Shown: piece after piece, positions 9,643 to 33,859 of the stretch
Position numbering within the stretch: the first letter of the stretch is position 1
How the letters are laid out: every line of letters starts with the position of its first letter
Assembly: GCA_017457045.1 (NCBI GenBank)
Contig: JAFTIF010000003.1
Location: 124,001 to 188,000 of the forward strand
Direction of reading: 5' to 3'
Source: Bacilli bacterium
GTDB lineage: Bacteria > Bacillota_I > Bacilli_A > RFN20 > UBA1709
DNA length: 64,000 nt
Made by a program: the position numbers and the translations under genes
Notes under the pieces: model-generated
Seen by the model: the letters and a program-made list of their open reading frames with translations, nothing else
Told to the model about the DNA's origin: nothing
Database searches by the model: none

Positions 9643-9663
9643 CGTGTGCTTACTCCTTTTTTA
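9632..9663. terminator. Bidirectional terminator between GDPD and TetR genes
   Basis: AAAAGGAGTAGC and GCTTACTCCTTTT pair with one bulge around GTGT, with T and A tracts on either side. It ends the plus-strand unit at 9642 and the minus-strand TetR gene at 9661. Confidence 0.8.
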
Positions 9664-10260
9664 TTTAAATAATCCGTTTTTAAGTATCTTCATGATGTCA
9701 TCAGCCATCTTTTCGATTTCATCTGGTTCAAGCTTGCGATCATTTTCAAGCATTGATTTTAATCCTAAGAAAGATGAAATGCCCATTAATGCTAATGCAA
9801 GTGTTTTAAAATCTACATCAATTAATTGATCTTTATCATTTGTTAAGCCTCTTTCATAACTTCTAGAGAATTTAGAGTAGTAGTCAACAAATAAGCTTTT
9901 ATCAACAATAAGTGATTGCCAAATTATAGTATAAGTTCTTGGGTTATCATTAGTAAATTCTAACCATGCAATAAGACCTATTCTTTCTTTTTCATATCTA
10001 TCATTGCAATTTCCAATCTTTGCTTGAATGTATCTTCTTAATCGATCTTGATAATCGGATAGGATATAGTGATACAAGGATATTTTATCTTTAAAATACA
10101 AATAGAAAGTACCTACAGCCATGCCTGCAGCAGAAGTGATATTGGCAATTGTAGTGTTTTCATAGCCATGAAGATAAAACTCATTATCAGCAGCTTCAAT
10201 AATACGTGCAAACTTTTCTTTTGCATTTTTAGTTTTTGGTAAAATTATTTCCATATTCAT
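9661..10260 (-). CDS. TetR/AcrR-family regulator of the divergent acyl-CoA operon
   Basis: The 199-residue protein has an N-terminal TetR helix-turn-helix (ARIIEAADNEFYLHGYENTT, then ANITSAAGMAVGTFYLYFKDK) and a C-terminal ligand domain of normal size. The ATG at 10260 follows AAGG by 5 bases. The ATG at 10254 is an alternative, and longer versions would lie in the promoter. It is divergent from the MaoC-to-LivK operon, with two palindromes in the shared region. By analogy with TetR regulators of fatty-acid degradation, it probably senses an acyl-CoA or the imported acid and releases repression. Ligand and target are inferred. Confidence 0.85.
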   Translation of the reverse strand: MNMEIILPKTKNAKEKFARIIEAADNEFYLHGYENTTIANITSAAGMAVGTFYLYFKDKISLYHYILSDYQDRLRRYIQAKIGNCNDRYEKERIGLIAWLEFTNDNPRTYTIIWQSLIVDKSLFVDYYSKFSRSYERGLTNDKDQLIDVDFKTLALALMGISSFLGLKSMLENDRKLEPDEIEKMADDIMKILKNGLFK

Positions 10261-10276
10261 CCCAACCTTCGTAATT

Positions 10277-10305
10277 ATTTTATCGATTTTAAGGCATATT
10301 GTCAA
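10277..10305 (-). promoter_or_regulatory. Promoter of the TetR gene
   Basis: On the minus strand, TTGACA (10305-10300) and TAAAAT (10282-10277) are separated by exactly 17 bp, 17 bases before the chosen ATG. This is an almost consensus housekeeping promoter with a very short leader. Confidence 0.75.
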
Positions 10306-10343
10306 TTTTTTAGCCAAAATATTAGACTATGTAATCAATATTG

Positions 10344-10375
10344 TTGACAAAAGCTGATATTTTTTTTAATATAAT
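10344..10375 (+). promoter_or_regulatory. Candidate promoter of the acyl-CoA/ABC operon
   Basis: TTGACA at 10344-10349 is followed after 17 bp by TAATAT (10367-10372), and after 20 bp by TATAAT (10370-10375). Transcription from here would give a leader of about 250 nt that covers both operators, so the operators would act as roadblocks, or a second promoter nearer the gene exists. I saw no clearly better promoter downstream. Confidence 0.5.
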
Positions 10376-10445
10376 AATATATTAAAGAAAATTTTTAACA
10401 TATTTATAGTTCATTTATCAAAAATTTTATATTTTTTTACCAAAA

Positions 10446-10465
10446 AAATGAACGACCATTCAGTT
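10446..10465. promoter_or_regulatory. TetR-type operator, copy 1
   Basis: The core TGAACGACCATTCA (10449-10462) is an imperfect palindrome. It matches copy 2 at 13 of 14 core positions. Half-sites of the TGAAyG/CATTCA type resemble those bound by TetR-family fatty-acid regulators. Assignment to the adjacent TetR gene is inferred. Confidence 0.65.
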
Positions 10466-10525
10466 TTTTAGAAATTCATAATTTATTTAGTACTTCGGTG
10501 GTAGAAGTTGTGCATAAAAAATAAG

Positions 10526-10544
10526 GATTGTAATTGTTACAATC
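10526..10544. promoter_or_regulatory. Perfect inverted repeat between the two operators
   Basis: GATTGTAA and TTACAATC are exact inverted copies separated by TTG. The motif does not match the two TetR operators, so a second regulator or a small RNA hairpin in the leader is possible. It does not match the Rex consensus I know from clostridial butyrate operons. Confidence 0.5.
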
Positions 10545-10560
10545 TATTTGCACGAAATAA

Positions 10561-10580
10561 AAATGAATGACCATTCATTT
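10561..10580. promoter_or_regulatory. TetR-type operator, copy 2
   Basis: AAATGAATG-AC-CATTCATTT is a palindrome with perfect 9-bp arms and a 2-bp centre. It lies 52 bp upstream of the first operon gene and shares its core with copy 1. This symmetry and its place make it the strongest operator candidate in the window. Confidence 0.75.
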
Positions 10581-10632
10581 TTTAGGAAAATCAAAGAGTT
10601 AAAAATTTTTAAACATATAGGAGGATAAAAAT

Positions 10633-11040
10633 ATGGCTTTTAGTGATTTCCAATTAGGTATGAAGGCATCAACTAGTAAAACAATTACAGAAACTGACGT
10701 AATTTTATTTGCCGGCGTATCAACAGACATCAATCCAGTTCACTTGGATGAAGAAACAGCAAAGAAAGGAATCTTTGGTAAAAGAGTAGCTCACGGTATT
10801 TTAGTAAGTGGTCTTATCTCAGCAGTATTAGGAAATAAACTTCCTGGTCCAGGTTCAATTTATATGGGACAAGAATTAAAGTTCTTAGCACCAGTATTCA
10901 TTGGTGACACAATTACTGCAGAAGTAGAAATTATCGAATTAATTCCTGAAAAATGTCGTATTAAATTAAATACTGTATGTAGAAATCAAGACGGTAAAGT
11001 TGTTATTTCTGGTACAGCATTAATCATGAATAGAGGTTAA
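10633..11040 (+). CDS. MaoC/PhaJ-type (R)-specific enoyl-CoA hydratase
   Basis: The 135-residue hot-dog-fold protein has the hydratase motif with Asp32 and His37 (TDINPVH) and the following GKRVAHG segment, as in PhaJ. These enzymes interconvert trans-2-enoyl-CoA and (R)-3-hydroxyacyl-CoA. This is the first gene of the operon (AGGAGG just upstream) and stops 5 bp before the acyl-CoA dehydrogenase. With the FabG/PhaB-type reductase further down, it would give an R-specific pair in place of the usual S-specific crotonase and Hbd. The chain length accepted is unknown. Confidence 0.88.
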   Translation: MAFSDFQLGMKASTSKTITETDVILFAGVSTDINPVHLDEETAKKGIFGKRVAHGILVSGLISAVLGNKLPGPGSIYMGQELKFLAPVFIGDTITAEVEIIELIPEKCRIKLNTVCRNQDGKVVISGTALIMNRG

Positions 11041-11045
11041 TAAAT

Positions 11046-12185
11046 ATGGAAGATTTAAGCTTACGTTATGAATTGTTCAATGATTTAATTAAAGACTTTG
11101 CTTTAAACCAAGTAAAACCTTTAGCTAAAGAAGTTGATGAAGAAGAAAGATTCCCAGCAGAAACAGTTAAGAAAATGGCTGAAATCGGTTTATTAGGTAT
11201 CAATGTACCTAAAGAATTAGGCGGTGCTGGTGGTGACATGAAAATGTATATCACAGCTGTAGAAGAATTATCAAAAGTTTGTGCTACAACAGGTGTTATC
11301 GTTTCAGCTCATACATCTTTATGTATTGCTCCAATTATGGAAAATGGTACTCCAGCACAAAAATCAAAATATGTTCCTAAACTTGCAAGCGGTGAATGGT
11401 TAGGTGCTTTTGGTTTAACAGAACCTAACGCTGGTACTGATGCATCATATCAACAAACAACTGCTCAAAAAGTTGAAGGCGGTTATGTATTAAATGGTAC
11501 AAAAATCTTTATTACAAACGCTGGTTATGCAGATTTATATGTAATCTTTGCAATGACAGATAAATCACAAGGTACAAGAGGTATCACAGCATTCTTAGTT
11601 GAATCAACATATGAAGGATTCAGAGTTGGTAAAAAAGAAGCTAAGATGGGTATTAGAGGATCATCAACTTGTGAATTAATCTTCACAAACTGCTTCGTTC
11701 CTGAAGAAAACGTTTTAGGTAAAATTGGCGAAGGTTTCAAAATTGCTATGAGAACACTTGATGGTGGTAGAATTGGTATCGCAGCTCAAGCATTAGGTAT
11801 TGCTGAAGGCGCTTTACAAGAAACAGTAGCATATGTAAAAGAAAGAAAACAATTTGGTCGTCCAATTTCAGCTTTCCAAAACACACAATTCGTTTTAGCT
11901 GATTTGAAAGCAAGAATTGAAGCTGCTAAATTATTAGTTTTTGCAGCAGCAGATAAAAAACAAAATAAAGCAAAAGATGTTTCTGTAGCAGCAGCTATGG
12001 CAAAATTATTTGCAGCTGAAACAGCTATGGAAGTTACAACTAAATGTGTCCAATTATTTGGTGGATACGGATACACTAGAGATTATCCAGTTGAACGTAT
12101 GATGAGAGATGCTAAGATTACTGAAATCTATGAAGGTACATCAGAAGTACAAAGAATGGTAATCTCAGGAGCATTACTTCGTTAA
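11046..12185 (+). CDS. Acyl-CoA dehydrogenase, short-chain (butyryl-CoA dehydrogenase-like)
   Basis: The 379-residue length is typical. Seen motifs are GLTEPNAGTD near 121 (substrate/FAD binding), MRTLDGGRIGIAAQALGIA, FGGYGYTRDYPVERMMRD, and the C-terminal IYEGTSEVQR, whose Glu363 is the expected catalytic base of short-chain enzymes. It reduces or oxidises the alpha-beta bond of an acyl-CoA, passing electrons to or from Etf. The etfB and etfA genes follow directly, as in the Bcd-EtfAB units of butyrate formers. Direction (crotonyl-CoA reduction or acyl-CoA oxidation) is not decided by sequence. Confidence 0.9.
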   Translation: MEDLSLRYELFNDLIKDFALNQVKPLAKEVDEEERFPAETVKKMAEIGLLGINVPKELGGAGGDMKMYITAVEELSKVCATTGVIVSAHTSLCIAPIMENGTPAQKSKYVPKLASGEWLGAFGLTEPNAGTDASYQQTTAQKVEGGYVLNGTKIFITNAGYADLYVIFAMTDKSQGTRGITAFLVESTYEGFRVGKKEAKMGIRGSSTCELIFTNCFVPEENVLGKIGEGFKIAMRTLDGGRIGIAAQALGIAEGALQETVAYVKERKQFGRPISAFQNTQFVLADLKARIEAAKLLVFAAADKKQNKAKDVSVAAAMAKLFAAETAMEVTTKCVQLFGGYGYTRDYPVERMMRDAKITEIYEGTSEVQRMVISGALLR

Positions 12186-12204
12186 TTAGGGAGGGTAAAA
12201 GAGT

Positions 12205-12996
12205 ATGAAAATAGTAGTATGTATTAAACAAGTACCTAATACTTCAGAAGTAAAAATTAATCCAGATGGTACTTTAAAAAGAGATGGCGTTCCTAGCATT
12301 ATGAACCCAGATGATAAAGCTGGTTTAGAATTTGCTATTCGCTTAAAAGAAGAATATGGTGCACATATCACAGTTATTACAATGGGCCCATTACAAGCTA
12401 AGAAAGTCTTAGCAGAAGCAGTTGCTATGGGAGCAGACACAGGTGTTTTATTAACAGACCGTGCATTTGCTGGTGCTGATACACTTGCAACATCTAAAGC
12501 TTTAGCAACAGCTATTAGACAATTTGACTATGATTTAATTATCACAGGTCGTCAAGCTATCGATGGCGATACAGCACAAGTTGGTCCACAAATTGCAGAA
12601 CACTTAGACTTACCACAAGTTTCTTATGTTACAAGTGTTACTAAATTAGAAGATGGATTCAAAGTAACTCGTCAATTCGAAGATGCTTACCAAGTATTAA
12701 AAGTTCCTTCACCAGCATTAATTACAGTTTTAGCAAGTGCTGTTGAAGCTCGTTATATGAGAGTTAGAGGTATTATTGATGTAACAAGTAATATGGACTT
12801 AGGAACAATCGTTACAATGACAGCAGCAGATATCGAAGCTGATTTAAGCGAATTAGGCTTAAAAGGTTCTCCAACTAAAGTTGCTGCAACAAGAAATAAA
12901 GAATACAGCGCTAACCATGACGTAAGAGATGGATTAGATGCTCACGAAGCTGCTAAATTAATCGTAGAAAAACTACAAGAAAGACACATTATATAG
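12205..12996 (+). CDS. etfB: Electron transfer flavoprotein beta subunit
   Basis: The 263-residue protein begins KIVVCIKQVPNT and has the segments VITMGP, DRAFAGADTLATS and GRQAIDGDTAQVGPQIAEHL. I recall closely similar segments in the electron-bifurcating EtfB of anaerobes such as Acidaminococcus. That makes it plausible that this Etf couples crotonyl-CoA reduction to ferredoxin reduction. This inference needs residue-level comparison. It forms a dimer with EtfA, encoded 9 bp downstream, and serves the acyl-CoA dehydrogenase just upstream. Confidence 0.92.
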   Translation: MKIVVCIKQVPNTSEVKINPDGTLKRDGVPSIMNPDDKAGLEFAIRLKEEYGAHITVITMGPLQAKKVLAEAVAMGADTGVLLTDRAFAGADTLATSKALATAIRQFDYDLIITGRQAIDGDTAQVGPQIAEHLDLPQVSYVTSVTKLEDGFKVTRQFEDAYQVLKVPSPALITVLASAVEARYMRVRGIIDVTSNMDLGTIVTMTAADIEADLSELGLKGSPTKVAATRNKEYSANHDVRDGLDAHEAAKLIVEKLQERHII

Positions 12997-13005
12997 GTGA
13001 TAAAT

Positions 13006-13989
13006 ATGAGTAAAGATATTTTAGTATTCGTAGAACAACGCGATGGCGTTATTCAAAACGTAGGTTATGAATTATGCGGAGCAGCAAGAGAATTAGCTTC
13101 AAAAGTAGAAGGCGCTAAAGTAGTAGCAGCAATTATCGGTGATAGCGCTTCAAAATTAGCTAATGAATTAAAAGATTCAGGTGCAGATGTTGTATGTTAT
13201 GTTGAACATAAATGTTTAAAACACTATTTAAATGAAACATATACAAATGCATTCGCAGAAATCGTCAAAGTTGTTGATCCAAATGTGGTATTAATAGGAG
13301 CATCAAGTATTGGTAGAGATTTAGCTCCAAGATTATCAGCAAGAATTAATACTGGTTTAACAGCTGACTGTACAAAATTAGAAATCAACGAAGATGGTCA
13401 ATTATTCTCAACAAGACCTGCATTTGGTGGAAACTTATTTGCAACAATTATTTGTCCAGATCACCGTCCACAAATGTCTACAGTTAGACCTGGCGTTATG
13501 AAACGTGCAGAAAAAGGTCAAGAAGTAGTTGAAATTAGAGAAGTTAAAGTTAAATTCGATTCACCAAAAGTTGAAGTTTTAGAATACGTTAAAACTAAAC
13601 AAGAAGTAGGAAAAATTGAAGATGCAAAAGCATTAGTAGCAGTTGGTAGAGGCTGTGGATGTGATGAATCATTAGCAATAGCTAATGAATTAGCAAATCT
13701 TTTAGGTGGTACAACAGCTACATCAAGATCATTAGTAGATGAAGGAAAAATGCCATCTTCTAAACAAGTTGGTCAAACAGGTAAAACAGTTAGACCTGAT
13801 TTATATTTAGCATTCGGTATCAGTGGTGCTGTACAACATATCGCTGGTATGGAAGATTCAGATTATATTATCGCAGTAAATAAAGATAAAACAGCTTCTA
13901 TCTTCAACGTAGCTGATTTAGGTATCGTTGGTGATGGAAATGTTATCTTACCATTAGTTGTTGAAGAAATTAAAAAGGTTAAAAAGTAA
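13006..13989 (+). CDS. etfA: Electron transfer flavoprotein alpha subunit
   Basis: The 327-residue protein starts DILVFVEQRDGVI and carries the C-terminal FAD domain with GQTGKTVRPDLYLAFGISGAVQH and NKDKTASIFNVADLGIVGD, which are hallmark EtfA motifs. The ATG at 13006 follows AGGTGAT with correct spacing. A GTG at 12997 is within that ribosome site. It pairs with EtfB and binds the FAD that exchanges electrons with the acyl-CoA dehydrogenase. The next gene is 51 bp away with its own ribosome site. Confidence 0.92.
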   Translation: MSKDILVFVEQRDGVIQNVGYELCGAARELASKVEGAKVVAAIIGDSASKLANELKDSGADVVCYVEHKCLKHYLNETYTNAFAEIVKVVDPNVVLIGASSIGRDLAPRLSARINTGLTADCTKLEINEDGQLFSTRPAFGGNLFATIICPDHRPQMSTVRPGVMKRAEKGQEVVEIREVKVKFDSPKVEVLEYVKTKQEVGKIEDAKALVAVGRGCGCDESLAIANELANLLGGTTATSRSLVDEGKMPSSKQVGQTGKTVRPDLYLAFGISGAVQHIAGMEDSDYIIAVNKDKTASIFNVADLGIVGDGNVILPLVVEEIKKVKK

Positions 13990-14040
13990 AAAAAATAAAA
14001 CATTTTTACTACATAAATAATATAGAAAGGGAAATTAGAG

Positions 14041-15252
14041 ATGAATAAAGTATTTATTTGTGCAGCAAAAAGAACTCCAATTGGCTCTATGCTTGGAACA
14101 CTTAAAGGTGTACATCCAGCAGATTTAGGTGCAGTTGTAGTAAAAAACATTTTAGAGGAAACTAAGTTAGATCCTAAACATGTTGATGAATTAATTTGCG
14201 GTAATGTTTTACCAGCAGGTAGAGGACAAGGAGTCGGTAGACAAGTAGCTATTAAAGCAGGTTTACCAATTGAAGTTCCAGCTTATAGCTTGAACATGGT
14301 TTGTGGTAGTGGTATGAAAGCAGTTATTAACGCTTATACATCTATCCAAGCAGGATTTAGCAAAGTAGTTATCGCTGGTGGTACAGAAAACATGTCATCA
14401 GCACCATATTTAATTCCTGAATCAACTAGATCTGGTGTTAAGATGGGCGGATTTAAAGTAGTAGACCACATGGTATATGATGCATTAACAGATGCATATT
14501 CAAATGTACATATGGGTATTACAGCTGAAAATATCGCTAAAAGATATGAAATTACTAGAGAAGAACAAGATAAATTTGCAATCAATTCTCAACTAAAAGC
14601 TATTAGAGCAGTTGATGAAGGTGCATTTAAGGAAGAAATTGTTCCTGTAGTAGTTAAAGAAAGAAAAAAAGAAATTGTATTCGATACAGATGAATATCCA
14701 AATCGTAGTACATCATTCGAAAAACTTGGAACATTACGCCCAGCATTTGATCCTCAAGGAACAGTAACAGCTGGTAATGCAAGTGGTATTAATGACGGAG
14801 CAGCATTCTTCTTAGTAGCAAGTGAAGAAGCAGTTAAAGAATTTGATTTACCAGTTCTTGCAGAAATTGTTGGTGTTGGTCAAGGTGGAGTTGATCCTCA
14901 AGTTATGGGACTAGGTCCTGTAGCAGCAGTTAATGATGTATTACATAGAACAGGATTAAATCTTGTTGACTTAGATGTCTTAGAACTAAATGAAGCCTTT
15001 GCAGCTCAATCAATTGGTGTTGTTAAAGAATTATCTAAACAACATAACGTTACTGAAGATAGTATCTATGCAAAAACAAACCTTAATGGTGGTGCAATTG
15101 CTTTAGGTCACCCAGTCGGTGCAAGTGGAGCAAGAATCTTAGTAACATTAACATATTTATTAAAACATCATGAAGAATTCAACGTAGGTCTCGCATCATT
15201 ATGTATTGGTGGCGGTATGGGAACTGCAGTTGTTATTAAAAAGGTTAAATAA
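14041..15252 (+). CDS. atoB: Acetyl-CoA C-acetyltransferase (thiolase)
   Basis: The 403-residue protein has all thiolase signatures: nucleophile Cys88 in NMVCGSGM, NEAFAAQS, the GGAIALGHPVGASGAR motif with His357, and the second catalytic Cys388 in CIGGGMG. It condenses two acetyl-CoA to acetoacetyl-CoA, or cleaves 3-ketoacyl-CoA. Length and motifs fit the biosynthetic/short-chain type. It lies between Etf and the ketoacyl reductase, so it can supply the C4 unit of butyrate or carry out the final cleavage of a degradative cycle. Confidence 0.92.
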   Translation: MNKVFICAAKRTPIGSMLGTLKGVHPADLGAVVVKNILEETKLDPKHVDELICGNVLPAGRGQGVGRQVAIKAGLPIEVPAYSLNMVCGSGMKAVINAYTSIQAGFSKVVIAGGTENMSSAPYLIPESTRSGVKMGGFKVVDHMVYDALTDAYSNVHMGITAENIAKRYEITREEQDKFAINSQLKAIRAVDEGAFKEEIVPVVVKERKKEIVFDTDEYPNRSTSFEKLGTLRPAFDPQGTVTAGNASGINDGAAFFLVASEEAVKEFDLPVLAEIVGVGQGGVDPQVMGLGPVAAVNDVLHRTGLNLVDLDVLELNEAFAAQSIGVVKELSKQHNVTEDSIYAKTNLNGGAIALGHPVGASGARILVTLTYLLKHHEEFNVGLASLCIGGGMGTAVVIKKVK

Positions 15253-15273
15253 TATATATAGGAGGAAATTGAA

Positions 15274-15993
15274 ATGAGATTAGAAGGTAAAGTAGCAGTA
15301 GTAACTGGTGGCGCAAGAGGATTAGGCGCAGCAATGTGTGAACTTTTTGCTAAAGAAGGTGCAAAAGTAGTAGCAGTTGATATGGGAGATGGAACATTTG
15401 AAAATCCTAATATCGAATTATACAAATTAAATATTACAGACACAGTAGCATGTAAAGAATTCTTTGACTATGTTGTAGAAAAATATGGTCGTTGTGATGT
15501 ATTAGTAAACAATGCTGGTATCACTAAAGATGCTATGACAAGAAAAATGACAGACGATATGTTTGATGCAGTTATCGCTGTTAACTTAAAAGGTGTATTT
15601 AATTTAACACGTCATTTTGGGCCTTTAATGGAAACAAATAACTATGGATCAATTATCAATATTTCATCAGTAGTTGGTGTATTTGGTAATATTGGTCAAG
15701 CAAACTATGCAGCTTCTAAAGCTGGTGTTATTGGTATGACAAAAACATGGGCAAAAGAATTTGCAAGAAAAGGTGCAAACGTTAGATGTAACGCAATTGC
15801 TCCTGGATATATCATGACTGATATGTTAAAAACAGTTCCTCAAAACTTATTAGATGATTTTGCTAAATTAACAATGTTAAAGAGATTAGGACAACCTCAT
15901 GAAATTGCTAATGCAGCATTATTCTTAGCTTGTGATGAATCATCTTATGTAACTGGTCAAGTATTAGAAGTTAACGGTGGCATGAGATTATAA
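15274..15993 (+). CDS. SDR-family 3-ketoacyl-CoA reductase (PhaB/FabG type)
   Basis: The 239-residue short-chain dehydrogenase has the cofactor loop TGGARGLG (11-18), NNAG (79-82), Asn104 and the catalytic Ser132, Tyr145 and Lys149. Members of this FabG/PhaB group give (R)-3-hydroxyacyl products, which matches the (R)-specific MaoC hydratase at the head of the operon. Between thiolase and an acyl-CoA enzyme set, the likely substrate is acetoacetyl-CoA rather than an acyl-ACP. The AGGAGG ribosome site is 21 bp after the thiolase gene. Confidence 0.88.
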   Translation: MRLEGKVAVVTGGARGLGAAMCELFAKEGAKVVAVDMGDGTFENPNIELYKLNITDTVACKEFFDYVVEKYGRCDVLVNNAGITKDAMTRKMTDDMFDAVIAVNLKGVFNLTRHFGPLMETNNYGSIINISSVVGVFGNIGQANYAASKAGVIGMTKTWAKEFARKGANVRCNAIAPGYIMTDMLKTVPQNLLDDFAKLTMLKRLGQPHEIANAALFLACDESSYVTGQVLEVNGGMRL

Positions 15994-16034
15994 TAAAAAA
16001 CAAATAAAAATATATAATAAGGAGGTTATTTAAA

Positions 16035-17054
16035 ATGAAAGACGTAACTGTCGGTATTGTTGGCGTTGGTACTTATTTACCTAGCAAAATGATGACTGCT
16101 AAAGAAATTTCTGACGCAACAAACGGAATTTGGAGTGAGGATGCAGTAAGACTAAAACTTGGTATCAATCAAAAACCAGTACCTGGTGATGATGATGGTA
16201 CTCAAGAAATGGGCGTTAGAGCAGCTAAAGCTTGTTTAGAAAATACTGGAATCGATCCAAAAGAAATTGATGTTATCCTATGTATTGGTGAAGAATGGAA
16301 AGAATATCCATTAACAACTTCAGCTATTTACATTCAAGACCAAATTGGTGCTGTAAATGCATGGGGAATTGATGTACAAAACAGATGCTGTACATGTGTT
16401 GCAGCTATGGAAATTGCAAAAGATATGCTTATCGCAGATGATGAAATCAACACAATCATGGTAGTTGGTGGATACCGTAATGGTGACTTCGTTGATTATG
16501 CAGATACAAACATGTCAATGATGTTCAATCTTGCTGCAGGTGGCGGTGCAATTATCTTAAAGAAAAACTATGGTAAAAACTTATTGTTAGGTACTAAATT
16601 AATGTCAGATGGTTCTATCTCAAGAACTGCTGGTGTTGAAATCGGTGGTATCAATAATCCTATCACTCATGAAAACTTAGAAGAATCTAGAAAATCATTA
16701 AGATTAATGGAACCTAAGAAAATGAAAGATAGATTAAACGAAGTATCAATGCCTAACTGGTATCATTGTATTGATGAAGCTTGTAGAAAAGCTGGCTTAA
16801 CAAGAGCAGACATCGATTATTTAGATGTATTACATATGAAACGCTCTGGTCACTATGCAATGTTAAAAGAATTAGGTTTAAGAGAAGATCAATCAATTTA
16901 TTTAGAAGATTACGGTCATGTAGGTCAAATTGACCAAATCTTATCATTAGAATTAGCATTAAAACAAGGAAAAGTTAAAGATGGCTCAGTAGTTTGTATG
17001 ATCGCAGCAGGTATTGGCTATGCTTGGGCAGCTAATATCATTAGATGGGGATAA
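16035..17054 (+). CDS. KAS III / HMG-CoA-synthase-like condensing enzyme, atypical
   Basis: The 339-residue protein aligns by eye to FabH: IVGVGTYLPSKMMT at the start, candidate nucleophile Cys118 in DVQNRCCTC, His267 in LHMKRSGHYAM, and EDYGHVGQID where FabH has YGNTSA. Thus the usual catalytic Asn is replaced by His295, and two further cysteines (119, 121) flank the nucleophile. It is not an ordinary FabH, because no acyl-carrier-protein genes are nearby. It may condense, transfer or hydrolyse acyl-CoA units in the pathway of this operon. It sits between the reductase and the ABC permease (3-bp gap). Confidence 0.8.
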   Translation: MKDVTVGIVGVGTYLPSKMMTAKEISDATNGIWSEDAVRLKLGINQKPVPGDDDGTQEMGVRAAKACLENTGIDPKEIDVILCIGEEWKEYPLTTSAIYIQDQIGAVNAWGIDVQNRCCTCVAAMEIAKDMLIADDEINTIMVVGGYRNGDFVDYADTNMSMMFNLAAGGGAIILKKNYGKNLLLGTKLMSDGSISRTAGVEIGGINNPITHENLEESRKSLRLMEPKKMKDRLNEVSMPNWYHCIDEACRKAGLTRADIDYLDVLHMKRSGHYAMLKELGLREDQSIYLEDYGHVGQIDQILSLELALKQGKVKDGSVVCMIAAGIGYAWAANIIRWG

Positions 17055-17057
17055 TAT

Positions 17058-17993: not shown

Positions 17994-17996
17994 ATT

Positions 17997-19082
17997 ATGA
18001 AGAAGAGTTTAATTTTGCCTTCTAAAAGAAGCGTATATAAAGATTTATCAAATAAAACTTTAAAAGATCGTTTAAAATTATTAGTTGCTCACCCAATTGG
18101 ACAATATGCATTATTAGGTGTTATATTATGCTTAGTAAACTTCTTGGCTCAATTTGGTATTCTTCCTAAATCATTAACAACAGCTATCTCATCAGTAATT
18201 GTTTATGCAATTATTTCGATTGGTTTCTGTTTGTTACTTGGTTATTCAGGTCTTGCATCATTAGGAACTGCAGGATTTGCTGGAATTGGTGCATACTGTG
18301 CATATTATGCATTCCAAGTTATGGGAATGTCATTCTTTACAGCTTTAATCTTATCAGTAGTAGTTGCTGCTGGTATAGGATTATTTGTTGGATTTATTTC
18401 ATTAAGAATTGAAGGTATGTATTTGGCGATTTTAACTTTAGGGTTAGCTGAAATCTTATTTAAAGTTTTCAAAAACTTAAATCAAATGCCAAAGATTAAC
18501 ATTTCAAACATTACTTTCTTATTTATTAAATTAGATAATAATATGAAATTTATCTTAATTACAGCAATGTTTGTCTTCCTATTATGGTTAACTAATAATT
18601 TAATTAATAGTCCAACTGGACGTGCTATGCTTGCAATGAAAAACTCTACATCTGCTGCTCAAGCGATGGGAATTAGCTTGATTAAGTATCGTTTATTAGC
18701 ATTTGTTATTTCAACAATTTATGCTTCAATTGGCGGTATGTTATATATCATGGTTACTAGAGCAATTGCAACATCATCATCAACATTCTTGTCACTTACT
18801 ATGTCGCTTAACATACTTGGCGCGGTTATTGTTGGTGGATCTAGATCGTTATGGGGTACTTCAATTGGTGTTCTATTAATCTTCGGAATTCAATCAATAT
18901 TCTTGATTAACGTTCCATTCTTTGTTGAACACCCAGAATTTATGGGTATTGTAACAGGGGTATTATTAATTGTTATCGTTATGTTCTATCCTGGTGGTCT
19001 TGCACAACTATTCTTAGAACTTAAGGTAAAATATTATAAATTTATACAAAAAAGGAGGATAAAAAAATATGGCACACATTAG
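17997..19082 (+). CDS. livM: ABC transporter permease, LivM family
   Basis: The 361-residue permease starts with a charged cytoplasmic arm of about 35 residues and then has eight to ten membrane segments. The conserved LivM pieces are GYSGLASLGTAGFAGIGAY, RIEGMYLAILTLGLAEI and GRAMLAMKNSTSAAQAMGI. It pairs with the LivH-like permease 3 bp upstream. Its last 14 bp overlap the start of the ATPase gene, so translation of the two is probably coupled. The C-terminal tail is strongly basic. Confidence 0.88.
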   Translation: MKKSLILPSKRSVYKDLSNKTLKDRLKLLVAHPIGQYALLGVILCLVNFLAQFGILPKSLTTAISSVIVYAIISIGFCLLLGYSGLASLGTAGFAGIGAYCAYYAFQVMGMSFFTALILSVVVAAGIGLFVGFISLRIEGMYLAILTLGLAEILFKVFKNLNQMPKINISNITFLFIKLDNNMKFILITAMFVFLLWLTNNLINSPTGRAMLAMKNSTSAAQAMGISLIKYRLLAFVISTIYASIGGMLYIMVTRAIATSSSTFLSLTMSLNILGAVIVGGSRSLWGTSIGVLLIFGIQSIFLINVPFFVEHPEFMGIVTGVLLIVIVMFYPGGLAQLFLELKVKYYKFIQKRRIKKYGTH

Positions 19083-20490
19083 TGATTATAGAAAATTATC
19101 CTCAAAGGTTGAATCATTAAAAGAAAAAATCACTTTCCAAAATGAACTTTATGAATTAGATAAAGTCTTAATTCACGAAAAGTATTTGAAGAAAGTTGAT
19201 AAGATTCAAGAAAAAGAAAATGAAAAATTAACAATTAAAGCATTTGCATTTGCTAATTTAGAAGAAGAAGTAAATAAAAGAATTGTTAATAGAATGCTAA
19301 AGTTCAATACTAAAGATTATTGGTTTAGAAGAGAAGCAATCCAAAATTACAGATTAAATAAAGAATCTGGATGGGATGCTTATCAAGCAAGACTAAATGA
19401 ATTAGATGAACTTAAAAAGCAAAAAGAAAAAGAAGAAAAAGAGAAAATTCGTAATGAGTTATCTAAATACATTGTTACTGATGCTGATGAATTAGAACAA
19501 GTTAAAGCTGATTTCCAATTAGCAGTAAAAGAATCAGAAGAATTTGTAAAAAATGAAGCTGAAAAATTATTTGCTAAGGAAAAAGATGAATTAGCAAAAA
19601 GAGAAGTTAAGTTTAATAAAACAATCGAAAAACTTCATGCTTTATTAGATGAAACTACAAAAGCATTAGAAAATTGTAACAATGAATCTTATTCTTTACC
19701 TGAAGGAGTAGTATTGAAAGTTGAAAACTTAACAATGCAATTTGGTGGACTTAAAGCCGTAGATAATTTATCTTTTGAAGTAAAAGATGGAGAAATATTC
19801 GGATTAATTGGACCAAATGGTGCAGGTAAAACAACTGTATTTAACTGTATTACTCAATTCTATAAACCTACAGCAGGTGAACTACATTTCTTAGAAAAAA
19901 GTGGAGCTACAATTTCACTTAATGATTACGCAGTTCATGATGTAATTAAAAAAGGAATCGTAAGAACTTTCCAAAATGTTGAGTTGGTTAAAGAAATTTC
20001 TGTAATGGATAACTTATTAGTCGCAGCACATTCTCAATATCACTCTAATTTATTCGAACAATTCTTACATTTACCAATTTTACAAAAAGAAGAAATTGCT
20101 ATGCGTAAGAAAGTAGAAGAAGTATTAGATTTCTTAGATTTAAATAATTACAAGAATATGTTATGTTGGGGACTTCCATATGGCATTTTAAAAAGAATTG
20201 AAATTGCTAGAACTTTAATGAATAATCCTCAATTAATTATCTTGGATGAACCAGCAGCTGGTTTAAATGATACTGAAACTGCTGAATTAACTAAATTAAT
20301 TCGTAAGATTCAAGAAAAATATAAATGTACAATTTTACTTGTTGAACATGATATGGGATTAGTTATGGATGTATGTAATACAGTTTGTGCTATTTCCTTT
20401 GGTAAATTATTAGGAATTGGTACTCCTGAAGAAATTCAAGCTAATAAAGATGTTCAAGCAGCTTATTTAGGATCAGTTGAGGAGGAATAA
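19069..20490 (+). CDS. livG: ABC transporter ATPase, LivG family, with a coiled-coil N-terminal extension
   Basis: Residues about 214-473 are a LivG-type ATPase with Walker [10 protein letters not shown] (248-256), Walker B LIILDEP (389-395) and H-loop His426. The signature motif reads [13 protein letters not shown], where LivG proteins normally have a YGQQRRLEIAR form, so the Gln is lost. Residues about 1-205 are an added, highly charged, mostly helical region (runs such as [17 protein letters not shown]) that looks like coiled coil. LivG is usually about 255 residues, so this extension is unexpected. The ATG at 19069 has AAGGAGGAT directly upstream, and no good ribosome site was seen near residue 214, so the long form is real. 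Confidence 0.88.
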
Positions 20491-20492
20491 TT

Positions 20493-21251
20493 ATGGAACT
20501 ATTAAAGATTTCAAATTTACAAGTTAACTATGGTCCTATCCAAGCAGTTAAGGGAATTAATTTATCAATCGAAGAAGGAAAAATTGTTGCATTATTAGGT
20601 GCTAATGGTGCTGGAAAAACTACAACTTTAAGAACTATCAGTGGAATTATTAAAGCTAGCGGTGGTGAAGTAGTTTTCAATAATGAAAATATTACTAATA
20701 AAAAAGCATTTACAATTGCATCTAAAGGTATTACTCAATCTCCAGAAGGAAGATTAGTATTCTATGGATTAAATGTTGAAGATAATCTTAAAGCAGGAGC
20801 TTATTCTTTGAAAACTAAAGTAGTTGAAAAAGATGGTAAAAAAGTTAAGATAAGTGCTTCTAAACAATTAAAGGAAAATTTAGAACGTGTCTATAGATTG
20901 TTCCCTATCTTAAAAGATAGAAGAAAACAACAAGCTTCAACACTATCTGGTGGTGAACAACAAATGCTAGCTATTGCTAGAGCATTAATGGCAAGTCCTA
21001 AAGTATTATTACTTGATGAACCATCACTAGGTTTAGCACCACTTATTATTAAAGATATCTTTAATACATTAAAAGAAATCCAAAAAGAAGGTACAACAAT
21101 CTTAATTGTTGAACAAAATGCATTAGCAACTTTAAAAATTGCTGACTATGCATACGTATTAGAGCTAGGATCTATTTCTATTGAAGGTCCAGCTAGTGAA
21201 TTAATCCATGATAAACGCTTAGTTGAAGCTTATCTTGGTGGTTCAAAGTAA
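20493..21251 (+). CDS. livF: ABC transporter ATPase, LivF family
   Basis: The 252-residue ATPase has Walker A GANGAGKTT, an intact signature LSGGEQQMLAIARAL, Walker B VLLLDEPSLGLAP and the H-loop region IVEQNALATLKIA, all typical of LivF. It is about 15 residues longer than usual because of a Lys-rich insertion after GAYSLKTK. It begins 2 bp after the LivG-like gene. With a normal signature here and a degenerate one in its partner, the two ATP sites of the dimer are probably unequal. Confidence 0.9.
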   Translation: MELLKISNLQVNYGPIQAVKGINLSIEEGKIVALLGANGAGKTTTLRTISGIIKASGGEVVFNNENITNKKAFTIASKGITQSPEGRLVFYGLNVEDNLKAGAYSLKTKVVEKDGKKVKISASKQLKENLERVYRLFPILKDRRKQQASTLSGGEQQMLAIARALMASPKVLLLDEPSLGLAPLIIKDIFNTLKEIQKEGTTILIVEQNALATLKIADYAYVLELGSISIEGPASELIHDKRLVEAYLGGSK

Positions 21252-21323
21252 AATTAATTATTGCATTGCAATATTAATTATAAAAATTTCATCAAAAAAT
21301 ATATAATAAAGGAGAAGAAAAAG

Positions 21324-22742
21324 ATGAAGGCAAAAAACATTTTATTTGCTAGTTTACTAGCAGCAGTAGCAATCACAGCTACAGGTTGTGATGGAGCTAC
21401 AGACAGTAAGCAAGGTATTACTGAAGATAAAATCTATATTGGTAATACAGCAGCTACATCTGGTGCATTCGCAGCAGTTGGTGAACCATTTAACATTGGT
21501 TTAAACGCAGCATTAAAAGTTTATAATGATGCAGGCGGCTTCGGCGGCAAAAAAGTTGAATTAAAACACTACGATGATAACTTCAACGCAGAACAAGGTT
21601 TAACTTACACAGAAAAATTAGTAGAAGAAGATCAAGTATTCGCATTAGTTGGTCACTTCGGTACACCTACAGTTGGTGCTACAGTTGACTACATCGTTGA
21701 CAAAGGTATCCCTATGGTTTACGCAGCAACTGGTGTTTCAGCATTATACAATCCTGAAGCTAAAGGTAACGAAAAAGCAGTTATGTCAGTTCAACCTATC
21801 TATAACGCAGAAGGTGCTGTATTATTAGCAAGAGCAGCTGCTACAACAGAAGGTAACTTAGGTTTAGGCGGTAAGAAAATTGGTGTTATTTCTACAACAG
21901 ATGAAGCAGGTACTGGTTTATTATTAGGTATCCAAGAACAAGCAGCAAAATTACCAAAAGAATTAAGAGACAACATGAAATTTGTTACTACAGATGCAAC
22001 AACAGGTACTAACCACTCTACAGCTGTTACAGCATTAAAGAACCACGGTTGTGACGTTGTAATCATCGCAGCTAACCAAGCACCATTTGAAGAAATCTTA
22101 AATTACTTCAAAACAACAGGTTATGACAATGTTAAAACTATCACTTCATATGTAAGTGCTAACACAGCATTAGCAGCTAAATTATATGCTTCAGAAACAT
22201 TAACAGCTACAAGAACAGCTTATACAACAGCATGGTTAGATATCACATCATCTACATATGTTTATAAACCAGCTGAAACAAACGCAATCGGTACATTATT
22301 ATGGCAATCATACAAAAACTTAGCACCATTAGTATACGATAATGGCGTTCCTGGATTCTCAGAAGAATACTGGGTAGCAGCAGAAGCTATCTATGCTTAC
22401 GCATTAAATCCAGCAGATGTTACATCATATGTTACAGCTTTCCAAATGTCATACAACTCATATGCATTAGCAGGTTATATCGCTGGTGAAACATTCTTAA
22501 CAGGTTTAAGAAGAGTAGCAGCAGATGAAAAAGACTTATCATGGAAAACATTCATCAAAGCTATGGAACAAGAAGAAGTAGACATCCCTATGGGTGGTGG
22601 CGTTGATTTCTCAGATGGTAAACGTGTTGGTATCCAAGACTTAGCATTAAATAAAATGGGTCCTGGTTTATTAGGCACAGGTGAATTAGAAGTTTACAGC
22701 CCAATTACAAAAATTGACACTGTTATGGAAGGCGTTAAATAG
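21324..22742 (+). CDS. ABC transporter substrate-binding lipoprotein, LivK/Peripla_BP_6 family
   Basis: The 472-residue protein has a lipoprotein signal (MKAKN, hydrophobic core, TATGC with Cys22) and a two-lobed type I binding fold. Landmarks are IYIGNTAATSGAFAAVGEPF, KVELKHYDDNFNAEQGLTYTEKLV and FALVGHFGTPTVGATVDYI. The ligand cannot be read from sequence; operon context suggests an organic acid or acyl compound. ATG 21324 is chosen because GGAGAAG precedes it and it starts a proper signal peptide. Codon use is that of a highly expressed gene. A strong hairpin follows. Confidence 0.88.
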   Translation: MKAKNILFASLLAAVAITATGCDGATDSKQGITEDKIYIGNTAATSGAFAAVGEPFNIGLNAALKVYNDAGGFGGKKVELKHYDDNFNAEQGLTYTEKLVEEDQVFALVGHFGTPTVGATVDYIVDKGIPMVYAATGVSALYNPEAKGNEKAVMSVQPIYNAEGAVLLARAAATTEGNLGLGGKKIGVISTTDEAGTGLLLGIQEQAAKLPKELRDNMKFVTTDATTGTNHSTAVTALKNHGCDVVIIAANQAPFEEILNYFKTTGYDNVKTITSYVSANTALAAKLYASETLTATRTAYTTAWLDITSSTYVYKPAETNAIGTLLWQSYKNLAPLVYDNGVPGFSEEYWVAAEAIYAYALNPADVTSYVTAFQMSYNSYALAGYIAGETFLTGLRRVAADEKDLSWKTFIKAMEQEEVDIPMGGGVDFSDGKRVGIQDLALNKMGPGLLGTGELEVYSPITKIDTVMEGVK

Positions 22743-22790
22743 TTGATACTATTTACAAATTAATTTCTTAGCAATAATTAAGTAATACTT

Positions 22791-22836
22791 ATCCAGTGGG
22801 TAACCACTCCCACTGGATTTCTAAAAATTTTTAAAA
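22791..22836 (+). terminator. Strong hairpin separating the importer operon from the CoA-transferase unit
   Basis: ATCCAGTGGG (22791-22800) and CCCACTGGAT (22809-22818) form a perfect 10-bp stem with an 8-nt loop, followed by a T/A-rich stretch. The T run is interrupted, so it may end transcription only partly and let some mRNA continue into the next three genes. Confidence 0.7.
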
Positions 22837-22854
22837 AAATAAAATAAAGATGAC

Positions 22855-22864
22855 CGTTTAAACG
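22855..22864. promoter_or_regulatory. Palindrome upstream of the CoA-transferase gene
   Basis: CGTTTAAACG is a perfect 10-bp palindrome 32 bp before the start codon. The surrounding TGACCGTTTA resembles the right half of the TetR operators (TGACCATTCA, 8 of 10 positions). It may be a degenerate operator that links this unit to the same regulator. Confidence 0.3.
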
Positions 22865-22896
22865 CAAGAGTAATATTACTCAAGGAGAATAAAATT

Positions 22897-24219
22897 ATGG
22901 TAGATTATAAATCAAAAATTATTACAATTGAAGAAGCATTAAAATTAGTTAAGAGTAATGATCATATCGTTACAGGTTTAGGCTCTTCTGAAGCAAAAGC
23001 ATTTTTAAAACAATTACACACTATCGCTGATAGAGTAGAAAATGTAACAGTTAACAACTGTTTACCTATGGATAACTATGAATTCTTTACTAACCCTGCA
23101 TATGTTAAAAACTTTGGTGTAGATGGTTGGTTTTACAATCCTGGCTTAAGAAAAGCTCATAAGCAAGGTAATATATCTTTTATTCCAAACAACTTACACT
23201 TTGCAGCAAGTAAACGCTTAGATCATATTCATCCAAATATTTACGTTGGTAATGGTACATATCCAGATGAACATGGATTTATCTCATTATCATTAGGTAA
23301 TGTATATGAAAAAGCTGCTATTGAAGCTGCAGATATCGTTATTATCGAATGTAATAAAAACTGCCCAAGAACATTTGGTGATGTTGAATTACATATCGAT
23401 GATGTAAATTACATTATTGAAACAGATTATGCAATTCCTGAAATCCCAGATGCAGAACCAAATGAAAAAGACTTAGCAATCGGTAGATATATTGCAGAGT
23501 ATATTCAAGATGGTGACTGTATTCAATTAGGTATTGGTGGTATTCCTAATGCTGTTGCAAAATCATTATATGGTAAGAAAAACTTAGGTGTTCATACAGA
23601 AATGTTAACATCTGAAATGGTTAAACTTGCTAAAGCAGGCGTAATCAATGGTAAATGCAAACAATTGCATAAAGGTAAAATGGTTGCAGCATTTGCTATG
23701 GGTACAAGAGAAATGTATGATTATTTAGATAACAACCCATCAATTCAAATCTTAAACGGTGGTTATGTAAATGATCCATATACAATTATGCAAAATGATA
23801 ACCAAGTATCAATTAATACTACATTAGAAGTAGATGTAACTGGTCAATGTTGTAGTGAATCTTTAGGTTCAGTTCAATTCTCAGGAACTGGTGGTCAATC
23901 AGATACAGCTATTGGTGCTCAAAAGAGTAAAAATGGTCGTTCATTTATCGCTTTATATTCAACAGCTATGGTTAGAAATCCTGAAACTGGTATTAAAGAA
24001 GAAGTTTCTAAAATTGTTTGCCAATTAAAACCTGGTGCTGCAGTATCATTATCAAGAAATGATTTACATTATTTAGTTACTGAATATGGTGTAGTTAACT
24101 TAAAGGGTACTACAATCCGTGAAAGAGTTGAAAAAATTATCTCAGTTGCTCACCCTAAATTTAGAGATCAATTAATGGAAGAAGCAATTAAATTAGGTAT
24201 TATCTATCCAAGAGGATAA
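22897..24219 (+). CDS. CoA-transferase, butyryl-CoA:acetate / 4-hydroxybutyrate CoA-transferase family
   Basis: The 440-residue length and the motifs LGIGGIPNAVAKSL, GVHTEML and FSGTGGQSDTA match the single-chain Cat1/AbfT/But family. Glu235 in GVHTEM is the likely nucleophile that forms the glutamyl-CoA thioester. These enzymes swap CoA between an acyl-CoA and a free acid such as acetate. It could release butyrate as the last step of the upstream pathway, or activate an imported acid. No CoA ligase gene is present in the cluster, which favours this enzyme as the activation or release step. It starts a three-gene unit. Confidence 0.88.
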   Translation: MVDYKSKIITIEEALKLVKSNDHIVTGLGSSEAKAFLKQLHTIADRVENVTVNNCLPMDNYEFFTNPAYVKNFGVDGWFYNPGLRKAHKQGNISFIPNNLHFAASKRLDHIHPNIYVGNGTYPDEHGFISLSLGNVYEKAAIEAADIVIIECNKNCPRTFGDVELHIDDVNYIIETDYAIPEIPDAEPNEKDLAIGRYIAEYIQDGDCIQLGIGGIPNAVAKSLYGKKNLGVHTEMLTSEMVKLAKAGVINGKCKQLHKGKMVAAFAMGTREMYDYLDNNPSIQILNGGYVNDPYTIMQNDNQVSINTTLEVDVTGQCCSESLGSVQFSGTGGQSDTAIGAQKSKNGRSFIALYSTAMVRNPETGIKEEVSKIVCQLKPGAAVSLSRNDLHYLVTEYGVVNLKGTTIRERVEKIISVAHPKFRDQLMEEAIKLGIIYPRG

Positions 24220-24223
24220 TCTT

Positions 24224-25045
24224 ATGGGAGAATTCTTATATCAAGGAAAAAAAGTCTTTTATGATGTAAAAGGTGAAGGAAAACCTATTATTCTATTAAA
24301 TGGTATTATGATGTCTACAGGTAGTTACAATACATTTGTTAATTCAGTAAGTGCATCAAATATGTTAGTAAGAGTAGATTTCTTTGATCAAGGAAATAGT
24401 GAAAGACTTAAAGGAGTAGAATATACTCAAGATTTACAAGTAGAAGTATTACATGCTTTAATCGAGCATTTAAAATTAAAAAACGCTGTTACTGTTGGTG
24501 TTTCTTATGGTGGCGAAGTTGCAATGAAACATGCTATTAAATATCCTAATGATATTGAAAGACTTGTTTTAGCAAATACAGCTGCATGGACATCTAACTG
24601 GTTAAGAGATATTGGACATGCATGGAATAAAGTTGGTGAAACTTTAGATGGTGATGCATATTATGACTTAGCAATTCCTGTTATTTATTCTTCAATGTTC
24701 TATCAAGAAAAAGAAGAATGGATGAATAATAGAAGAAAAGTTTTAGTTCCATTATTCTCTACAAAAGAGTTCCAAGAACGTATGAAACGTTTAGTAGATA
24801 GTGCAGAATCACATGATTGTAGAAAAGATGTGCACAAGATTTCTTGTCCAACACTTGTAATTTCTTCAAAATATGATTGTTTGACACCTATGCACGAACA
24901 AGAATTATTAGTTAAAGAGATTCCAAATTCTCATCATGTTATTTTACCTAACTGTGGTCATGCATCAATGTATGAAGACCCACTAGTATTTATGGCTTTA
25001 GTATTAGGTTTTGCTAATGCTAAAGATACAAACTATATTATTTAA
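24224..25045 (+). CDS. Alpha/beta hydrolase (first of two)
   Basis: This 273-residue alpha/beta hydrolase has nucleophile Ser94 in GVSYGG, Asp218 in SSKYDCLTP and His246 in NCGHASMY, a complete triad. It begins 4 bp after the CoA-transferase. Where many hydrolases have HG for the oxyanion hole, this one has LNGIMMSTGS. It could be a thioesterase, ester hydrolase or ring/C-C hydrolase for the compound handled by this cluster. The exact reaction cannot be told. Confidence 0.82.
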   Translation: MGEFLYQGKKVFYDVKGEGKPIILLNGIMMSTGSYNTFVNSVSASNMLVRVDFFDQGNSERLKGVEYTQDLQVEVLHALIEHLKLKNAVTVGVSYGGEVAMKHAIKYPNDIERLVLANTAAWTSNWLRDIGHAWNKVGETLDGDAYYDLAIPVIYSSMFYQEKEEWMNNRRKVLVPLFSTKEFQERMKRLVDSAESHDCRKDVHKISCPTLVISSKYDCLTPMHEQELLVKEIPNSHHVILPNCGHASMYEDPLVFMALVLGFANAKDTNYII

Positions 25046-25059
25046 AGGAGAGATTTATT

Positions 25060-25962
25060 ATGTTTCTTAATTTAGAAAAGAAATATGTCAATTTACCAAA
25101 TGGTGAAAGATATGCTTATATTGAAAAAGGCGAAGGAGATAAAGTAGTTTTATTAATTCATGGTAATAATGCTTCATCTATTCACTATGAACCTTTATAT
25201 CGTGATTTCCCTGAAGGATATCGTGTAGTAGCACCAGATTTAAGAGGATTTGGTGATTCAAGCTACAATAAATCATTTGATACAATCCATGAAGTTGCTG
25301 ATGATGTTGCATTATTTATGAAAGAATTAGGCATTACTAGCGCATATGTAGTAGGTTGGTCATTTGGTGGCTGTGTTTCACAATCATTGTCAGCTAGATA
25401 TCCAGCATTAGTTGAAAAATTAGTATTATTAAGTTCTGGTTCTGTAAAAGGATATCCTATCTTTAAAAAGGATGCTTATGGTCAAGTTAAAGTAGGAGAA
25501 ATCTATGAAAGTAAAGAAGAATTAGCTTTAGATCCAGTTACAGTTGTACCATTACTTGATATAGAAAGAAAAAATGATACAAAAATGATGGGAGTTATTT
25601 GGAACTATACAATTTATACTTCTAAATCACAAAAACGTCCTGACGAAGATGCAAGCGAAATCTTCTTATTAGAATCATGTAAAGAAAGATGTTTAGTAGA
25701 TGCTGACTGGGCATTAATGCGTTATAACATTACAGATACTACTTCTTTCTATGCTCCTGGTGAAGATTTAGCAAAAGATATTAAATGTCCTGTATTAGCA
25801 GTAAATGGTGAAGATGACTTGGTTGTTCCTGAAATCATGACAAGTGAAAACAGACAAGCAATTCCTTCATTAAAACAAATTTATTATGCAGATTGCGGTC
25901 ACTCAGTTATGGTAGACCAACCTGCACAATTCTTAAAAGATTTAATTGAGTTCATTGGGTAA
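25060..25962 (+). CDS. Alpha/beta hydrolase (second of two)
   Basis: The 300-residue protein has the oxyanion motif LLIHGNNASS, the DLRGFGDS segment, nucleophile Ser101 in GWSFGG, an acid in NGEDDLVVP and His in DCGHSVMVD. It belongs to the same superfamily as its neighbour but is clearly diverged, so the two probably act on different intermediates or form a pair. It has its own AAAGGAG site 15 bp after the previous stop. A perfect terminator ends the unit. Confidence 0.82.
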   Translation: MFLNLEKKYVNLPNGERYAYIEKGEGDKVVLLIHGNNASSIHYEPLYRDFPEGYRVVAPDLRGFGDSSYNKSFDTIHEVADDVALFMKELGITSAYVVGWSFGGCVSQSLSARYPALVEKLVLLSSGSVKGYPIFKKDAYGQVKVGEIYESKEELALDPVTVVPLLDIERKNDTKMMGVIWNYTIYTSKSQKRPDEDASEIFLLESCKERCLVDADWALMRYNITDTTSFYAPGEDLAKDIKCPVLAVNGEDDLVVPEIMTSENRQAIPSLKQIYYADCGHSVMVDQPAQFLKDLIEFIG

Positions 25963-27752: not shown

Positions 27753-27789
27753 TTATGATATAATTTATTTGATTTACGGAGGTAAATTT

Positions 27790-33839: not shown

Positions 33840-33859
33840 ATTTGTTGTAAATGTTGATT

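Follow-up and report, generated by a model that had tools for sequence, protein, structure and literature searches.

Described systems and the proposed pathway

It has been proposed that Ilyobacter polytropus and I. delafieldii ferment 3-hydroxybutyrate to acetate and butyrate; the Ilyobacter reaction is given as 2 3-hydroxybutyrate → 2 acetate + butyrate + H+, at −59.34 kJ/mol (PMC10096456). The same overall reaction is suggested here for an operon from a Bacilli bacterium (assembly GCA_017457045.1, contig JAFTIF010000003.1), which lies in a stretch of 64,000 nucleotides referred to below as the window. The operon comprises 15 co-directional, tightly packed genes on the plus strand (10633..25962), from which a TetR-family regulator gene diverges. 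The likeness to Ilyobacter is one of overall reaction, whereas the Liv-type importer, the hydrolase of the polyhydroxyalkanoate (PHA) depolymerase type and the KASIII-like enzyme are features of this operon. The clostridial Thl-Hbd-Crt-Bcd-EtfAB butyrate pathway has thiolase and acyl-CoA dehydrogenase (ACAD) with EtfBA in common with the operon, but the latter has a short-chain dehydrogenase/reductase (SDR) and MaoC in place of Hbd and Crt, an optional ACAD, an importer and hydrolases. The PHA cycle of PhaB, PhaJ and intracellular PhaZ shares families and, by family, the R-stereochemistry, and one of the operon's two alpha/beta hydrolases, ABH2, scores right at the cut-off for a family of intracellular PHA depolymerases; however, 39 of 40 genomes carrying the operon have no PHA synthase over the cut-off, and the operon's SDR is apparently of the NAD type and falls below the PhaB cut-off. 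Compared with FabH (KAS III), the operon's KASIII has His for the Asn of the triad and persists in 20 genomes where neither FabF nor FabH exceeds the cut-off. E. coli LivJ/LivK-HMGF is alike in subunit set and fold, while the operon has Tyr for the ammonium-binding Glu and an extra N-terminal region in LivG.

3-Hydroxybutyrate, one of the ketone bodies of the host, is the monomer of poly(3-hydroxybutyrate) (PHB) and of bioplastics, and PHB is an all-R polymer. We put a probability of about 0.45 on the explanation that the operon serves the uptake and fermentation of an (R)-3-hydroxy acid of short chain, (R)-3-hydroxybutyrate and its short oligomers being the likeliest; the substrate, the direction and every reaction are what we infer from the gene set. 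LivK-HMGF would import the acid, ABH2 and perhaps ABH1 would split ester-linked oligomers, and the CoA-transferase would activate the acid by transferring CoA to it from acetyl-CoA or butyryl-CoA, which would make a ligase unnecessary. The SDR would then oxidize (R)-3-hydroxybutyryl-CoA to acetoacetyl-CoA, which the thiolase would convert to two acetyl-CoA. Where MaoC-ACAD-EtfBA is present, as in the window, a second molecule would be dehydrated by MaoC and reduced to butyryl-CoA, consuming NADH, and the net reaction would be 2 3-hydroxybutyrate to 2 acetate and butyrate; carriers without ACAD would run the oxidative half alone, form acetate and need another electron sink. The KASIII would act outside fatty-acid synthesis. 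The operon thus offers a candidate enzyme for each step, phosphotransacetylase and acetate kinase aside, for which no search was made.

Enzymes and importer of the operon

The genes named in the initial annotation are all present and intact, in the order it gave, at 9661-25962, and the R-type C4 route by which it saw Hbd and Crt replaced, tied to a Liv-type importer, was borne out: neither Hbd (PF00725) nor crotonase (PF00378) occurs among the operon's own genes. The MaoC/PhaJ-type (R)-enoyl-CoA hydratase (10633..11040, PF01575) has the (R)-specific enoyl-CoA hydratases 5cpg (E 2.9e-31) and 1iq6 as its closest solved relatives, and its D32/H37 pair, corresponding to the catalytic Asp-His pair of PhaJ, is kept in 20/20 members; here and below, residues were counted in families under length and identity limits (33%, or 30% for TetR), weak and short rows having been dropped beforehand. 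The short-chain ACAD (11046..12185), assigned by family matches, scores best in NCBIfam with acryloyl-CoA reductase (489.7, under the cut-off of 640) and keeps E363 in 19/19; EtfB (12205..12996) and EtfA (12997..13989) each have a family match, so the window holds an ACAD of the butyryl-CoA dehydrogenase type together with EtfAB. The thiolase (14041..15252) passes TIGR01930 (471.8 against 240.55), with C88/H357/C388 kept in 58/58.

The SDR (15274..15993), placed by family matches and residues, keeps S132/Y145/K149 and D36 in 72/72. Asp36 sits at the end of the second beta strand, and an Asp at this position is the mark of NAD(H) use, the cofactor being fermentative rather than biosynthetic; its conservation suggests that the enzyme uses NAD(H) and is a probable NAD(H)-dependent (R)-3-hydroxyacyl-CoA dehydrogenase. 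Among the best 25 of 206 families scored, it lies under the cut-offs of PhaB (NF042966, 198.6 against 436) and acetoacetyl-CoA reductase (TIGR01829, 240.5 against 302.1); of the PhaB-type reductase annotated at first, the SDR remains and the PhaB assignment does not.

The CoA-transferase (22897..24219) belongs to the 4-hydroxybutyrate/butyryl-CoA:acetate family, with 3eh7 as its best solved relative (E 6.1e-93) and Glu235 kept in 61/61. It had been called a But/AbfT enzyme; the family assignment holds, but it fails the But cut-off TIGR03948 (313.3 against 674.8). A CoA ligase is absent from the cluster's genes, as had been stated. Both alpha/beta hydrolases that had been listed are present. 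ABH1 (24224..25045) is closest among solved structures to the metagenomic hydrolase MGS-M2 (4q3l, E 2.8e-81), for which a literature search found no natural substrate, and keeps S94/D218/H246 in 57/57. ABH2 (25060..25962) can be placed further, as a hydrolase of the intracellular short-chain PHA depolymerase type: it just passes NF050089 (300.1 against 300), which is its sole NCBIfam match at 1e-40 in 21/21 sequences (the window and 20 of the 48 relatives kept), 8 of 10 relatives exceed the same cut-off, its nearest solved structure is the poly(3-hydroxybutyrate) depolymerase 8ynv (E 4.3e-63), and the triad S101/D253/H281 is kept in 49/49.

The importer consists of two permeases, LivH (17058..17993) and LivM (17997..19082), both matching PF02653, the ATPases LivG (19069..20490) and LivF (20493..21251), assigned by family matches, and the solute-binding lipoprotein LivK (21324..22742, PF13458). 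LivK was taken to start at ATG 21324, which gives a lipobox-like signal and has AAAGGAGAAG upstream, TTG 21261 being set aside; its AlphaFold model is confident (pLDDT 88.8). In LivJ, Glu226 holds the ligand's alpha-ammonium. The corresponding position is Tyr in 60/60 cluster proteins (the window and 59 relatives), a correspondence that rests on a MAFFT alignment, the profile comparison with LivJ/LivK having aligned the first half only. A plain leucine/valine, or other amino-acid, binder is therefore unlikely, which the initial annotation had named as an outcome that would speak against its reading. LivG has about 205 extra residues at its N-terminus, a charged and coiled-coil-like extension (residues 1-205, 19069-19683); the protein has at least 400 residues in 52/65 relatives, with a median identity of 16% in the extension as opposed to 63% in the core.

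Conservation, carrier genomes and control elements

A KASIII protein search gave 5649 relatives, FabH-like proteins included, among 7998 scored candidates, and GTDB genomes, scanned with an alignment of 20 sequences, yielded at least 413 confirmed loci among at least 587 matched stretches, of which the best 80 were kept; relatives' genes were called with our own open reading frame (ORF) script and BLAST to the window genes. The SDR gene stands immediately 5' of KASIII in 75/80 loci and LivH immediately 3' in 74/80; LivK was seen in 62, the CoA-transferase in 61, thiolase and TetR in 60 each, ABH1 in 57 and ABH2 in 53, while MaoC, ACAD and EtfB were seen in 19 each and EtfA in 20. These counts are what contig ends allow, the loci often lying on cut contigs, and those for the hydrolases may be slightly inflated by matches at 22-30% identity that belong to other hydrolases. 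Foreign ORFs inside the operon are near nil in complete loci. From these counts, the core is thiolase with SDR-KASIII-importer-CoA-transferase-hydrolases, and the butyrate half is optional. The order (TetR)-[MaoC-ACAD-EtfBA]-thiolase-SDR-KASIII-LivHMGFK-CoA-transferase-ABH1-ABH2, proposed at the outset for a conservation check, recurs in these 80 loci far beyond chance. The carrier records are named Erysipelotrichaceae, Bacilli, Acholeplasmataceae, Izemoplasmatales, Christensenella, Oscillospiraceae, Lachnospiraceae, Proteiniclasticum, Clostridium bovifaecis and Peloplasma, among others, and the module is widespread in many uncultured gut and sediment bacteria. Plasmids gave no KASIII match at E 1e-60, and among the matches listed, the titles and abstract openings of the open-licence PMC literature do not describe the cluster.

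More distantly, a member passing the NF005308 cut-off occurs in 38/398 sampled genomes of the C. bovifaecis phylum, and 20 of 30 loci from this sample (L111-L130) were read. There, KASIII stands with a CoA-transferase in 15 and with an AMP-forming ligase in 4, and with Liv genes in 17 and a sodium symporter in 3. In Clostridium bovifaecis itself, KASIII-CoA-transferase-MaoC adjoins a CoA-transferase subunit (PF01144) and a short-chain fatty acid transporter (PF02667).

Statements about gene content outside the window are drawn from the genomes of relatives. From the 80 loci, 40 carrier genomes were chosen, mostly for long contigs; the sample is non-random, and all carry KASIII by selection. 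Most are metagenome-assembled genomes (MAGs) of unstated completeness, and they are partly interrelated (L063 and L065 show identical identities). An Hbd domain (PF00725) was found in 5/40 and the crotonase family (PF00378) in 4/40, with none in 35/40 and 36/40, respectively. The models used for this and the other gene counts recover their targets in named control genomes; E. coli and B. subtilis, for example, score for both Hbd and crotonase. The R-type route is therefore usually the sole C4 route in the carriers, and a separate Hbd/Crt pathway, which had been named as a possible refutation, is mostly missing. MaoC was found in 37/40 (36 over the cut-off) and ACAD in 24/40; in the other 16 the core persists, so butyrate is not the core product. 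In the closest relative (G001, locus L001; KASIII identity 94%), the cluster's own copies are the single MaoC and the single ACAD, and there is no Hbd, crotonase, BKACE, FabF or FabH over the cut-off. PHA synthase exceeds the cut-off in 1/40, with weak matches only in 4 more, so that stored polymer does not appear to be the usual target of ABH2 and a PHA storage role is unlikely. Secreted PHB degradation by PF10503 esterases was also considered and set aside, these being over the cut-off in 2/40 and weak in 2 more.

BKACE, of the lysine-fermentation type, is present in 25/40 carriers, and 39/40 have at least one of BKACE and ACAD (10 both, 14 ACAD only, 15 BKACE only), a pattern confounded by kinship. 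Of 18 MaoC regions read, 13 come from genomes without ACAD (L131-L143) and 5 from others. In all 13 of the former, MaoC adjoins lysine-fermentation genes, assigned by reading in L131, L132 and L134-L143 and through a BKACE match on the same short contig in L133; in L132 the names were confirmed by NCBIfam, with KAL, KCE, KDD and lysine 2,3-aminomutase all over the cut-off. MaoC apparently stands in for Crt in these 13 carriers, which lack ACAD and crotonase, and lysine-derived crotonyl-CoA thus also seems to be handled by R-type hydration. In four of the other regions (L144, L145, L146 and L148) MaoC heads a MaoC-ACAD-EtfBA block elsewhere in the genome, and in the fifth (L147, genome G008) MaoC precedes a class III PHA synthase, with which it is grouped together with a repeat-rich ORF of 420 aa that is uncharacterised. 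In the relatives, the thiolase and SDR of the operon probably act as a shared hub of C4 metabolism and, with an R-type MaoC, probably also serve lysine-derived crotonyl-CoA.

The KASIII-like enzyme (16035..17054) belongs to the PRK06840 family, passes NF005308 (486.5 against 315) and has Cys118-His267-His295. The FabH triad is Cys-His-Asn, whereas His295 is found in 35/35 aligned members where FabH alignments show Asn. FabH exceeds the cut-off in 19/40 carriers and FabF in 20/40, with neither in 20/40; one genome of this last group (G034) has a further KASIII at 240 bits, below the FabH cut-off of 292.1. Because KASIII is kept in these 20 genomes, its work is not fatty-acid synthesis, and with the Asn-to-His change this removes FabH as an identity. 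A substitute for thiolase is unlikely as well, thiolase being present in 49/51 carriers (the 40 and 11 added; the misses are G445 and G447). That the enzyme performs acyl transfer is a guess. A decidedly speculative extension would make the PRK06840 KASIII a new catabolic class, a CoA-dependent acyltransferase that cleaves the ester bonds of (R)-3-hydroxy acid oligomers thiolytically and conserves their energy in hydroxyacyl-CoA; many of the bacteria concerned would have lost fatty-acid synthesis. No mention of PRK06840 was found in open-licence PMC papers. Close to the PRK06840 gene, L026, L071, L112, L116, L125, L127, L128 and L130 carry another KASIII-like gene with 25-28% identity to that of the window, and further ones occur at 32% (L115) and 40% (L128) identity.

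Intergenic gaps across the 15 genes range from −14 to 72 bases, the largest separating LivF from the corrected LivK start, with one 154-base exception 5' of the CoA-transferase gene. The TetR gene (9661..10317, minus strand; PF00440, 48.2 bits) probably starts nearer 10260 or 10254 than at its long-ORF start, judging by sequence; a promoter-like site at 10305-10277 lies inside the long ORF, and another, TTGACA-17-TAATAT on the plus strand, at 10344..10372. The latter is a consensus match of little weight, 74 such sites being seen in the region where 94 are expected. Two palindromes, TGAACGACCATTCA (10449..10462) and TGAATGACCATTCA (10564..10577), are putative copies of a TetR operator. The window motif recurs with at most one mismatch in 3/52 other divergent-TetR loci, where shuffles expect 0.1, which speaks against an operator conserved across loci; the TetR control first claimed is only suggested, by the divergent gene and the two palindromes. 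A strong, intrinsic terminator-like hairpin at 25988..26016 (plus strand; 11 pairs, 7 of them GC, with a T run after) probably ends the operon. Within the 154-base gap between LivK and the CoA-transferase, a hairpin CCAGTGGG...CCCACTGG at 22793-22816, absent from the terminator-scan list, possibly uncouples the last three genes. Outside the operon, a GH3 protein at 27769-30189 has its C-terminal domain preceding its N-terminal domain, and a T-box leader lies at 33845-34029 (106.8 bits).

Competing explanations and significance

Several observations weigh against 3-hydroxybutyrate fermentation as the role of the operon. The support comes from genes and sequence comparison, and the genomes behind the absence counts are mostly MAGs whose completeness is not stated. 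A plain 3-hydroxybutyrate pathway leaves no task for KASIII, the best conserved of the members, since thiolase is kept in 49/51 genomes. Leucine, aromatic acids and other compounds are ligands of the proteins closest to LivK in fold, whose Z scores differ by a few units, which leaves the ligand class undecided by fold. The SDR passes the cut-off of a FabG subfamily (NF009466, 230.9 against 222), ABH1 is poorly characterised, and ABH2 is borderline in the window, with 2/10 relatives under the cut-off (285.6 in L003, 299.4 in L008). The secreted PHB depolymerase type (PF10503), at 2/40, makes use of the polymer itself unlikely. Among the 20 distant loci, 7 show no SDR within the 15-20 kb read, and one (L119) has neither a CoA-transferase nor a recognised ligase.

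The initial annotation had left two readings, butyrate synthesis from acetyl-CoA and breakdown of an imported organic acid; the latter fits better, because 16/40 carriers show no ACAD, MaoC-ACAD-EtfBA is seen in 19/80 loci (many cut short) and the operon includes a PHA-depolymerase-type hydrolase. A butyrate synthesis operon whose importer handles an unrelated substrate would explain why thiolase, SDR, MaoC, ACAD-EtfBA and a But/AbfT-family transferase all lie in the cluster, and most carriers have no detected Hbd and Crt; it is nevertheless unlikely, since, beyond the missing ACAD, the MaoC-ACAD-EtfBA block lies elsewhere in the genome in 4/18 regions, the SDR is of the NAD type by the rule given above, the transferase scores less than half the But cut-off (313.3 against 674.8), and the importer and the depolymerase-type hydrolase are regular members of the operon.

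Breakdown of another imported hydroxy- or oxo-acid, for instance a six-carbon polyketide-like or ring-cleavage acid, is somewhat unlikely. ABH1 would open or hydrolyse such an acid, KASIII would split one C-C bond and the C4 rest would pass through SDR and thiolase, which accounts for both KASIII and thiolase being kept; C-C hydrolases and enol-lactonases are among the weaker relatives of ABH1, and aromatic-acid binders are among the structures near LivK. Yet none of the cluster genes encodes an enzyme for ring reduction or ring opening from a known aromatic pathway (the recurrent neighbours of the 80 loci were viewed without annotation), and ABH2 is specifically PHA-depolymerase-like. Phloroglucinol-type and 4-hydroxybutyrate pathways were likewise weighed and set aside, without a genome search aimed at their enzymes. 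An amino-acid fermentation hub, in which Liv would bring in either lysine or one of the branched-chain amino acids, and lysine-derived crotonyl-CoA would be burnt by the C4 enzymes, draws on BKACE in 25/40 carriers and on MaoC beside lysine-fermentation genes in 13/18 regions; it is very unlikely, given that 15/40 carriers, including the closest relative, have no BKACE, that the lysine genes lie outside the operon, as almost no foreign ORF intervenes in complete loci, and that Tyr occupies the LivJ Glu226 position.

If the fermentation of (R)-3-hydroxybutyrate is indeed its function, the operon would provide the genetic basis on which many uncultured bacteria of gut and sediment could use this acid, and it would be a natural case of R-stereospecific C4 metabolism that does without Hbd and crotonase. 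It also brings forward PRK06840 as a highly conserved KASIII family for which the search turned up no known reaction. The annotation of butyrate and 3-hydroxybutyrate pathways would then change, because searches based on Hbd and Crt miss this operon.

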